Shown here piece after piece: positions 12,693-16,372 of a stretch of 64,000 bases of DNA. The notes below the pieces were generated by a model. That model was not told the DNA's origin. It worked only from the letters and a program-made list of their open reading frames with translations, and made no database searches. The DNA comes from an uncultured Verrucomicrobiota bacterium (GTDB lineage: Bacteria; Verrucomicrobiota; Verrucomicrobiia; Limisphaerales; UBA9464), in contig CAIVQB010000020.1 of assembly GCA_903907925.1 (NCBI GenBank), positions 1 through 64,000 on the forward strand, read 5' to 3'. The position numbers were made by a program, and so were the translations under genes. Every line of letters begins with the position of its first letter. Positions within the stretch are counted from its first letter, which is position 1.

Positions 12693-14420
12693 GTGACACA
12701 CCCCTTTCGACGGCTGGCGGCTTTCGTTTTCCTGTGGATCGGTTGCTCCACCGTCGTCCGCGCCGCTTCGGTCCCGATTGCCGAGACACCCAATTCCGAG
12801 GCGGCCGAGGTCGTGGTGGTCTACTCCCGGCAGTCGGCCGAATCGAAATCGGTCGCCGACTACTACGCGGCGAAACGTGGCGTGCCCCTGGATCAGGTCA
12901 TCGGCCTCAATGTGCCGCCGAGTGAAAACATCACCCGCCCGGACTATGAGCGGTTGATTCAGGATGAGCTGATTCACCAACTGCGGGAACGCAGGTTGAC
13001 CGAGTTCAACACGGATATTTCGCCATCCCGTCCGGGCCATCCCGGCAGGGTTCTTTACCGGGCCACATCCTCGCGGGTTCGATATATCGCCCTGTGCTGG
13101 GGCATGCCGTACCGGATTCAGCACGATGCGGGCTACGATCCGTTGCATCAGGAGGAGGCCTTCAAGTTGATCCCCGCCCATCTGCAGCGGGACGAGGGAT
13201 CGGTCGACGGCGAGCTCTCCATTTTGCCCGTCGCCGGGCGCACGACGGCCTGGGGTCCTATTCGAAACCCCACCTATACCACCACCAACCTGTCGGTGAT
13301 CCATCCCACCAACGGGATCTTCATGGTGACCCGCCTGGACGGCCCATCACCGGCCATTGCGAAGGGCCTGGTCGACAAGGCGCTGATCGCCGAACGCGAC
13401 GGTCTCAACGGTCGCGCCTATTTCGATCTTCGAGGTCTGACCGGCGGTGCATACGCGGTCGGTGACCAATGGATCACCAACGCGGCGACGGTGGCCAAGC
13501 GGTTTGGCTACGAGACCACGGTGGATTCCAAACCGGAGACGTTCAACACGGCCCAGCCCTTTGCCCAAGTGGCTCTGTACGCCGGATGGTACATGGATCA
13601 CGTCGACGGCCCCTTCGCCCTGCCGGTGGTGGAATTCATGCCGGGCGCCATCGCGTATCATCTGCATTCGTACAGCGCCTATTGGATCCGCTCTGCCGAG
13701 AACAACTGGGTGGGACCGCTTCTGGCCAAGGGCGTCACCGTCACCCTGGGCTGCATCGAGGAGCCCTACCTCGAACTCACGCCCAACATCGGTGTCTTCT
13801 TCGAACGCCTGGCCTATCAGCAGGGGACGGTGGGTGAGGCCGCTGTGGCGTGTCAGCCGGTGTTTTCCTGGCAGACGGTGGTGATCGGGGACCCGTTGTA
13901 CCGGCCGTTTCTTCACAACCCCATCGAATGGGAGAAGATTCATGCCGCCGAGGGCAATCCCGCCGTGGAATGGGACGTGATTCGCAAGGTGAACGTTCAC
14001 CTCCTCAACCAACGTGACCCCGTGGTGCTCCGGAACTATCTCATCGAGCAGCCGTTTTCCACCAACAGCGCCGTGGTCGCCGAGAAGATCGCCCACATGT
14101 TTTCCGACGCCGGCCAGGTCCGGCCGGCCGTCGAATGGGGACAACGTTCGATCAAGGCGGGCGGAACCCCGCAGCAACGCAGCCACCTGCTGCGGCAGAT
14201 CGCGGAGTGGCAATTGGGCGTCGACGCAAAGGGAGCCATGGCCACCTTTGAGGCCTTCCATCGCGAGTTTCCCGGGCACCCCGAAATCCTCCGGGTCCTG
14301 GGTCAGCAACTGGAGCTGGCCCAAACGTTGAAGCGGTCCTCGGATGTACAACGGCTCAAGTCCGCCATTGCCCGCATCCAGGCGGCCGCGACCAATCACG
14401 TCGAAGCGAAACCGCAGTAG
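12693..14420 (+). CDS. Secreted TIGR03790-family protein with TPR-like tail
   Basis: The 575-residue product has a signal peptide (RRLAAFVFLWIGCSTVVRAA). The core matches the TIGR03790 pattern: VVVVYSRQSAESKSVADYY and AAKRGVPLDQVIGLNVP, then YIALCWGMPYRI, a segment YFDLRGLTGGAYAVGD, and GAIAYHLHSYSA near residue 320. The last 150 residues are helical and resemble TPR repeats (WGQRSIKAGGTP, LRQIAEWQLGVDAKGAMATF). Members of this family are found in planctomycetes and Verrucomicrobiota and have no assigned activity. Start GTG 12693 lies 5 bases after cmk. It is the last gene of the forward run. Confidence 0.75.
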   Translation: MTHPFRRLAAFVFLWIGCSTVVRAASVPIAETPNSEAAEVVVVYSRQSAESKSVADYYAAKRGVPLDQVIGLNVPPSENITRPDYERLIQDELIHQLRERRLTEFNTDISPSRPGHPGRVLYRATSSRVRYIALCWGMPYRIQHDAGYDPLHQEEAFKLIPAHLQRDEGSVDGELSILPVAGRTTAWGPIRNPTYTTTNLSVIHPTNGIFMVTRLDGPSPAIAKGLVDKALIAERDGLNGRAYFDLRGLTGGAYAVGDQWITNAATVAKRFGYETTVDSKPETFNTAQPFAQVALYAGWYMDHVDGPFALPVVEFMPGAIAYHLHSYSAYWIRSAENNWVGPLLAKGVTVTLGCIEEPYLELTPNIGVFFERLAYQQGTVGEAAVACQPVFSWQTVVIGDPLYRPFLHNPIEWEKIHAAEGNPAVEWDVIRKVNVHLLNQRDPVVLRNYLIEQPFSTNSAVVAEKIAHMFSDAGQVRPAVEWGQRSIKAGGTPQQRSHLLRQIAEWQLGVDAKGAMATFEAFHREFPGHPEILRVLGQQLELAQTLKRSSDVQRLKSAIARIQAAATNHVEAKPQ

Positions 14421-14438
14421 TGTTCGACGGGTTGCCAG

Positions 14439-14680
14439 GGGCACATCTTGACACTGCCCCCCGGACGCCGCGCTCCAGGGCGGGGAAGGCAAGCCTTCCG
14501 CTGTTCTCAGGGCCAACGGCCCGGCCCCATACCAGCCTTGGGCACCGCCCAAGGTGGAGGGCCCGGTTCCACCCGAGCCCCATATTCGTTTTGGTACGCG
14601 GTGGATCGGCCGTCGTGAGTCGGATGCATGCCCAACGTTGTTCCAACGGGCTTCCATAGGGGCAGTGTCAAGATGTGCCC
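14439..14680. mobile_element. 242-bp MITE with perfect 22-bp inverted ends and 9-bp target duplication
   Basis: Left end 14439-14460 (GGGCACATCTTGACACTGCC plus CC) is the exact reverse complement of the right end 14659-14680. GGTTGCCAG occurs directly outside each end (14430-14438 and 14681-14689), the expected target-site duplication. The interior has further palindromes (GGAAGGCAAGCCTTCC; CCTTGGGCACCGCCCAAGG) and a 28-bp repeat (14555-14582) also found at 20752, 20862 and 48035. It encodes no convincing protein, so it would have to be moved by a transposase elsewhere. Confidence 0.9.
14555..14582 (+). repeat. 28-bp palindromic repeat, family B copy 1
   Basis: TGGAGGGCCCGGTTCCACCC followed by GAGCCCCA, inside the MITE. 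It differs by 2 bases from the identical copies at 20862-20889 (reverse) and 48035-48062. Confidence 0.7.
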
Positions 14681-14718
14681 GGTTGCCAGCCGGAACGATT
14701 CGGAGGGAGCCGCCAAGG

Positions 14719-14788
14719 GACGCAAATTCACAGATTTGGACGGAATCAACAGAACGAACCGGATCGGATCAGCACTTTGGGAATCCGT
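14719..14788 (+). repeat. Dispersed intergenic repeat, family A copy 2
   Basis: Contains GGACGGAATCAACAGAACGA then ACCGGATCGGATCAGCACTT and TGGGAATCC, the same order of blocks as the copies at 7451 and 31079. It lies beside the MITE and upstream of the prmA stop. The bases from 14789 to 14828 show nothing else. Confidence 0.6.
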
Positions 14789-14828
14789 TCTAATCTTTCC
14801 CAATCGGTGTCCATTCTCCGGTCCCAGT

Positions 14829-15749
14829 TCAGCGTTCGCGGAACAGTCCCGAACGCCATTCTCGATCCGTTTTGGCGCGAACCATCCGCCATCCTTCGGT
14901 GGCATAGGCCGCGGCGACTTCGTTGAATTGAGTGGCCAGGATTCCGGCCAGAACAAGAGAGCCACCCGGCTTCACACGGGCCAGGATCCGATGACGGTGG
15001 GCGATCAAGAGGTCGGAGATCAGGTTGGCACAGACCACGTCAAACCGGTCTCTGGTTCGCGCTGGAAGCCGGGTCACGTCCGCCAGCTTGGGACGGACCG
15101 TTTCCGCGACGTCATTGAGGCGGGCGTTTTCCGCGGTGATACGGACGCAATCCGGATCGAAATCGAAGGCTTCGACCGGTCCATATCCCAGCTTCGCCGC
15201 GGCAATCGCCAGAATCCCGGTGCCAGTTCCCATGTCCATCAGGGAGGGCCGGTCTGCCGTGCGGCGTAAGGCGGCGACCTGCGACAGGCAAAAATTTGTC
15301 GTCGCATGCTGCCCGGTTCCGAAACTGAGTCCCGGGTCCAGCAGCACGACCTGCTGGCCTTTCTTTGGGACCCGACGGCTCCACGTGGGTTTCACCAGCA
15401 GGGTGGGACCGATCTCGATCGGCTTGAAATGCCGCTTCCACGATTCGCTCCAATCCTGCGGCGGAACCGTGCGAATCGAAATCCGCCCGGGATCAATCTC
15501 GTGGCCCTCCTCGCGGGCTTCGATCAAGGCCTCCCGCAGCAATGCGCGGGTCTCGACGGTTTCCGCGACCGGCAGGGACCAGTAAACGCTTACCGTTGAG
15601 AGGCCGGTGGCCGCCTCGGTGTAGATGCCGGGCTGTTGACCGAATTCCCGTTTCAACACCGCCACCGCGGCGTCCTCGCCCTCCGGTCGGGTGACGATGG
15701 CGATCTGGCGGAGCGGGGCGGACTTTGATTTTACGGAAGATCGCGCCAT
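14829..15749 (-). CDS. prmA: Ribosomal protein L11 methyltransferase PrmA
   Basis: The 306-residue product trimethylates ribosomal protein L11 using SAM. Motifs are FGTGQHATTNFC, the SAM loop MDMGTGTGILAIAAAKLG, FDFDPDCVRITAENA and CANLISDLL (usual position of the catalytic N[IL]L region). The N-terminal substrate-recognition domain of about 110 residues is present (TVPPQDWSESWKRHFKPIEI). ATG 15749 overlaps the end of the phosphatase gene by 19 bases. Confidence 0.92.
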   Translation of the reverse strand: MARSSVKSKSAPLRQIAIVTRPEGEDAAVAVLKREFGQQPGIYTEAATGLSTVSVYWSLPVAETVETRALLREALIEAREEGHEIDPGRISIRTVPPQDWSESWKRHFKPIEIGPTLLVKPTWSRRVPKKGQQVVLLDPGLSFGTGQHATTNFCLSQVAALRRTADRPSLMDMGTGTGILAIAAAKLGYGPVEAFDFDPDCVRITAENARLNDVAETVRPKLADVTRLPARTRDRFDVVCANLISDLLIAHRHRILARVKPGGSLVLAGILATQFNEVAAAYATEGWRMVRAKTDREWRSGLFRER

Positions 15750-16372
15750 GGGGTGAAATTCAACAATTGGAGTTCGTTCCTGAGTTTTCCGCCCTTGGTG
15801 ACGCCGACATCCACCCGGGTCACGCCGGCATAATCGATTTCGATGCATTCAAACCAGCGCAGCGGTTGGTTCAACAACACCGACAACAGGCCTCGAATCA
15901 CTCCGCCATGGCAGAAGACCGCGACGGTGCGGCCCGCCGGTCCGGTCACGATCTGCTGAAGCGCGAGGTTGAGCCGGCCCAGGAAGTGTTCGATGGATTC
16001 CGCGCCGGCGACGTGGTTCTGCTCGAGATGATGCAACCAGTCATACGCCGACATGCCAAACCGTTGTTCGACCTCATTCCAGCCGAAGCCGGTCCAGTCA
16101 CCGAAATCGATTTCGCGCAGCCCGGGGATCACCACTGGATTACCGGAAAAATGGCGGCGGAACGGTTCGTAGGTCAGTTCGACCCGGCGCATCGGGCTGA
16201 GATAAACGGCGTCGAATGCGGTCCGGGCCAGCCAGCCGGCGAGGCGTTCGGACTGTTGATGGCCGGCCGGCGACAGTTCCATGTCGATCCGGCTGCCGCC
16301 GAAGATACGGTGATAGCGGGATTCCACCTCGCCATGCCGGATGAAATAGACCCGGGTCGGATCGGGGTTCAT
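15731..16372 (-). CDS. Histidine phosphatase superfamily protein
   Basis: The 213-residue product has the branch-1 histidine phosphatase signature YFIRHGEVE near residues 8-16 with catalytic His, a second arginine in SPMRRVELTY, the acid residue in REIDFGDWTG, and the second catalytic His in VAVFCHGGVIRG. The DFGDWTG phrase is typical of alpha-ribazole phosphatase (CobC) and of phosphoglycerate-mutase-like enzymes, so the substrate is undecided. It overlaps RNase PH by 4 bases and PrmA by 19. Confidence 0.85.
   Translation of the reverse strand: MNPDPTRVYFIRHGEVESRYHRIFGGSRIDMELSPAGHQQSERLAGWLARTAFDAVYLSPMRRVELTYEPFRRHFSGNPVVIPGLREIDFGDWTGFGWNEVEQRFGMSAYDWLHHLEQNHVAGAESIEHFLGRLNLALQQIVTGPAGRTVAVFCHGGVIRGLLSVLLNQPLRWFECIEIDYAGVTRVDVGVTKGGKLRNELQLLNFTPWRDLP

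Follow-up and report, generated by a model that had tools for sequence, protein, structure and literature searches.

A 242-bp miniature transposon of an uncultured Verrucomicrobiota bacterium, probably mobilized in trans by an ISKra4-family transposase

Non-autonomous miniature transposons (MITEs) of bacteria include Correia, RUP and ERIC, and internal deletion is the most usual origin of MITEs. A review deals with the bacterial MITEs (PMC2229807). The ISKra4 transposase group (p-MULT 4), with its ISMich2, ISKra4 and ISAzba1 groups, has inverted repeats of 18-39 bp and target duplications of 8-9 bp, and the ISMich2 group has two overlapping ORFs with a -1 frameshift (Guerillot et al. 2014, PMC3942029). 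On ISMich2 the literature search returned only this original paper (PMC3942029). The same kind of search, with candidates judged by title and abstract, found no paper describing ISKra4-mobilized MITEs, and no paper containing the 22-bp end sequence of the element described here was found in the literature either.

The element lies in the window, the whole 64,000-nucleotide stretch of DNA that was analysed, between two convergent genes. It is 242 bp long, or 260 bp with both 9-bp repeats, and the locus is composed of the following features.

12693..14420, plus strand: TIGR03790 family protein gene, with its stop codon 9 bp before the duplication
14430..14438, no strand: left target-site duplication copy GGTTGCCAG, 9 bp, an exact match to the right copy; the nine-position duplication is confirmed over 131 elements
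14439..14460, plus strand: left terminal inverted repeat GGGCACATCTTGACACTGCCCC, 22 bp; in other genomes the same end precedes the ISKra4-family ORFA
14461..14658, no strand: interior without transposase (from the sequence, the ORF list and the repeat search)
14484-14499: interior hairpin GGAAGGC/GCCTTCC
14498..14647, no strand: host interspersed repeat within the interior, also found elsewhere in the genome without inverted ends and there with a longer 3' extension
14510-14522: interior hairpin GGGCC/GGCCC
14536-14554: interior hairpin CCTTGGGC/GCCCAAGG
14659..14680, minus strand: right terminal inverted repeat, the exact reverse complement of GGGCACATCTTGACACTGCCCC
14681..14689, no strand: right target-site duplication copy GGTTGCCAG (direct reading and repeat search)
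14829..15848, minus strand: ribosomal protein L11 methyltransferase-like gene (prmA), convergent with the TIGR03790 gene

Direct reading and a mechanical repeat search agree that perfect inverted ends (22 of 22 bp) bound the element at 14439-14680; the length, ends, 9-bp direct repeat and coordinates given by an earlier, sequence-only reading of this DNA were exact. That reading had also reported no internal transposase ORF, which the ORF list bears out: there is none within the 242 bp, and the ORFs overlapping the element are mechanical. No further copy of the 22-bp end was found in the window beyond the element's two (0 expected by chance). The whole element folds strongly as DNA (z = -6.8), mostly due to the paired ends, and the interior alone has a fold z of -2.3 against mononucleotide shuffles. 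No Rfam family was found in the element's region, and no terminator-like or promoter-like site was found in 14300-14900. Three congeners (G001, G006 and G007) have the TIGR03790 gene next to prmA and no MITE end close by; the outcome that the earlier reading had named as counting against it, the same element at orthologous loci in relatives, thus did not occur. The spacer between the two genes is ∼34 bp in two of the three, and is too poorly conserved for a base-by-base empty site.

Our reading, to which we give a probability of roughly 0.88, is that the feature is a MITE moved in trans by an ISKra4-family transposase. A DDE enzyme of this family (prokaryotic Mutator-like, p-MULT 4) would very probably have recognized the 22-bp ends, and a 9-bp staggered cut would have placed the element between the two convergent genes. 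The transposase would since have been lost from the lineage, or be missing from the assembly, and the interior would have been gained by capture of host hairpin repeats between two ends, not by internal deletion of the parent.

Searching the genome for the 22-bp ends, as the earlier reading had proposed, showed that they are repeated genome-wide, with 40 sites within 3 mismatches vs 0 for the reversed pattern. The whole 242 bp used as a query gave 52 matches in the 4.6-Mb genome, and in total ∼20 paired and ∼50 partial copies of the element were counted. The paired copies fall into size classes of 134-135, 208-209, 239-242, 260-270 and 318-329 bp. Nine copies besides that of the window (on C18, C113, C137, C51 twice, C115, C85, C45 and C47) have a duplication of at least 9 bp with no more than one mismatch. 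The longer copies are ∼88-96% identical to the window copy over shared regions, and the family taken together is therefore not a young one; the best-preserved ends within it are those of the window copy. The earlier claim of recent transposition needs a qualification: 'recent' is relative, given genome copies that are only ∼88-96% alike and an assembly in which no partner transposase was found.

Across the order, the end was found within 3 mismatches in 21 of 58 relatives, representing 15 of 32 genera, and outside the order it was found in one other genome of a phylum-wide sample. Among the matches listed, named records with the exact end were mostly Verrucomicrobia, Limisphaerales and subdivision 3 MAGs; also among the matches listed, the exact end occurs in Lentisphaerae GWF2_57_35 and in some MAGs labelled otherwise. 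No exact copy of the end was found in viral contigs. The richest case is G027 (6.2 Mb), with ∼230 elements, or one per ∼27 kb. Several of its contigs (records JAIXZE01) begin or end inside an element, with ends 97-119 bp from the contig edge, and the repeats thus appear to fragment its assembly; in the assemblies examined, family elements are often at contig ends.

In 131 non-redundant paired elements, with mismatched flanks as the control, the two flanks have an identity of 0.65-0.77 over exactly nine positions and of 0.27-0.46 outside these on both sides. The duplication is exact in 47 of the 131 elements, and in 69 it has at most one mismatch, vs 2 in the mismatched control. Flank agreement over exactly nine positions in so many elements marks the family as mobile, with a target duplication of 9 bp and transposition by a 9-bp stagger. 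Lengths of 134-138 bp account for nearly half of the elements (64 of 131) and form the length peak. At L091:1388-1665, an element and its 9-bp flank are in tandem in the order ACTCCCGTT-element-ACTCCCGTT-element-ACTCCCATT, which suggests local duplication after insertion, and similarly spaced ends at L062:380-539 and G014:C261:4955-5742 are possibly tandem too. At the G055 locus L167:3010-3637, the element measures 628 bp and has a 9-bp duplication with one mismatch and an interior rich in AAGTCCCGCAGGGACGA-type repeats.

A transposase gene with the same end was found in other genomes. When a genome collection was scanned for the end, an unpaired end copy was found, at least among the matches listed, to run after ∼90 bp into an ISKra4-like N-terminus. 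Of 320 genomes from the order, 37 have this N-terminus. The MITE end (no more than 5 mismatches) stands 81-99 bp before the ORFA start in 17 of 29 readable ISKra4 N-terminal loci, with 0 of 29 in the reversed control. The partner insertion sequences (IS) are ∼1.4 kb long and belong to other families of the order. The following copies and one candidate were delimited.

G174:C271: 1377 bp, target duplication TAGGGCGTC (exact, 9 bp), ends with 5 and 0 mismatches
G245:C200: 1387 bp, exact 9-bp target duplication, ends more diverged with 6 and 7 mismatches
G686:C263: 1360 bp, target duplication with 1 mismatch, ends with 3 and 4 mismatches
G083:C18: 1380 bp, no matching target duplication, ends with 1 and 0 mismatches
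G217: candidate pair of ends, 1697 bp, exact 9-bp repeat, ends with 5 and 4 mismatches

The 22-bp ends of the partner IS are within the 18-39 bp of the ISKra4 family, and its direct repeats agree with the 8-9 bp of the family, being exact at 9 bp in G174 and G245 and with 1 mismatch in G686. The partner transposase matches the ISKra4 model NF033572 at 6.6e-50 with ORFB alone and 1.2e-55 with both ORFs joined; the scores are 187.7-189.3 bits for the joined ORFs and 169.3 bits for a single-ORF copy, all below the curated NCBI cut-off of 205, and the next-best family is far below at ∼56 bits. In G041, the MITE ends GAGCGCATCTTGACACTGCCAC and the IS end GAGCGCATCTTGACACTACCAC resemble each other and have variant letters in common. 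The likeness to the ISKra4 family is in end length, in the 9-bp duplication and in the NF033572-matching transposase of related genomes, whereas the window element differs in having no transposase and in having only the ends in common.

Many partner elements also resemble ISMich2 in having two overlapping ORFs. In G174, G083, G245 and G686, frame arithmetic gives a +1/-2 relation at a 10-nt T/C run, and in the single-ORF copy G116 the run is 9 nt. Joining the ORFs thus needs +1 (or -2) on the T/C run, unlike the reported -1. The T-then-C run at which the partner transposase is split is conserved (L343, L344, L349, L353 and L360), and its length in the two-ORF and single-ORF forms suggests programmed slippage or a +1 shift rather than the -1 of ISMich2. 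At L265:4220-4525 (minus strand), the end and an ISKra4-like leader run into a short ORF that by eye resembles the start of a tyrosine recombinase, not a transposase.

The window element has the properties of other bacterial MITEs, being short and non-coding (242 bp, under ∼600 bp, with no transposase gene), with terminal inverted repeats that match at 22 of 22 positions, a target duplication of nine positions that recurs at unrelated sites over 131 elements, and multiple genome copies (the 52 matches and 40 ends above), and likewise, very probably, with mobilization in trans. An autonomous partner with the same ends was found too, but in other families of the order and not in the element's own genome. 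The earlier reading had made the element dependent on an outside enzyme with 9-bp staggered cuts and had asked for a transposase between identical ends; the 131-element duplication and the ISKra4-family IS with the same ends and 9-bp duplication support both, though from other genomes of the order.

Neither the genome of the window nor G025 or G027 yielded an ISKra4 gene; the latter two have the most copies, and all are fragmented assemblies. The window element therefore looks stranded. Such assemblies may lack the contigs of a multi-copy IS; either the IS was lost in assembly or binning, or the enzyme acted and was then lost. That the most copy-rich genomes yielded no ISKra4 gene is what favors an unlikely alternative, namely that the MITE was moved by another family that duplicates 9 bp (IS256, IS4/IS5, ISLre2 or IS1) and that the ISKra4 end match is convergent. 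Chance, however, does not account for a 22-bp match in a fixed position upstream of 17 of 29 ISKra4 genes, and in the direct search, which covered IS256 and PF01609, no MITE-like end was found to bound the IS256 element or the PF01609 elements searched.

Several candidates were rejected as the partner. The one full-length IS256 element (PF00872) of the genome has ends unlike those of the MITE, and none of 19 PF01609 (IS4/IS5-type) loci checked was bounded by MITE-like ends. One PF01609 locus, G039:C222, has a MITE-like end ∼250 bp upstream of its ORF, but judging by homologues the boundary of the IS falls inside that end. Among ISKra4 loci, the 30 with the highest scores come from other subgroups, with ends that do not match.

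What the earlier reading missed is that a host repeat, and not a shrunken transposon, makes up most of the interior. The interior repeat was found without inverted ends elsewhere in the same genome, as at C92:176223-176373 and C8:5943-6102; in the sequences L018, L028 and L030 it has no MITE end and has a common extension that is missing from the MITE. The 208-209-bp class is composed of ∼78 bp of the 135-bp class joined to ∼133 bp of the 242-bp class. In other lineages the interiors are unrelated by alignment and are mostly other hairpin repeats. Those of G027 are seen also away from any MITE end, so that interiors of host repeats which also occur without ends are shown in two genomes; in the limited DNA examined, the interior repeats of the 135-bp class of the window's genome and of G041 were not seen away from MITE ends. 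In G027, some elements (L095, L087 and L270) contain one and the same hairpin unit two or more times, as though the cargo were expanding inside them. The MITE-IS identity is confined to the ∼22-bp ends. Most simply, pairs of ends would have taken up local repeats, with capture as the probable direction.

Since internal deletion is the usual route to a MITE, the element might instead be a classic deletion derivative of an ISKra4 copy with an interior diverged beyond recognition. This is improbable: outside the ends nothing resembling the IS was seen, the host repeats that the interior matches have a longer form elsewhere, and from one lineage to another the interiors are unrelated to each other. 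That the feature is a resident regulatory or structural palindrome (REP- or terminator-like) spread by recombination, as its site between convergent genes, its strong fold and an interior also found alone might imply, is hardly credible, being already contradicted by 9-bp duplications at unrelated sites in 131 elements, as well as by ends common to an insertion sequence and by the lack of a terminator-like or promoter-like site in 14300-14900.

The family resembles REP and other palindromic intergenic repeats in that its cargo is mostly hairpin-rich repeats, and differs in that the cargo lies within transposon ends and a 9-bp duplication. It differs from the bacterial MITEs in that unrelated host hairpin repeats replace the interior by lineage and in its dominant 134-138 bp class. 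We tentatively suggest that the ISKra4-type 22-bp ends may act as a portable 'shell' that has repeatedly captured abundant host hairpin repeats across the order, with a length constraint near 135 bp, an idea that we hold at somewhat less than even odds. If it is true, host REP-like repeats would become able to transpose with no enzyme dedicated to them, and cargo capture would stand beside deletion as a source of MITEs. The work ties a small-repeat family found across the order in uncultured Verrucomicrobia to a family of ISKra4-type enzymes, and the exchangeable, mostly hairpin-rich interiors make it testable how bacterial intergenic hairpin repeats spread and whether transposon ends acquire them as cargo.
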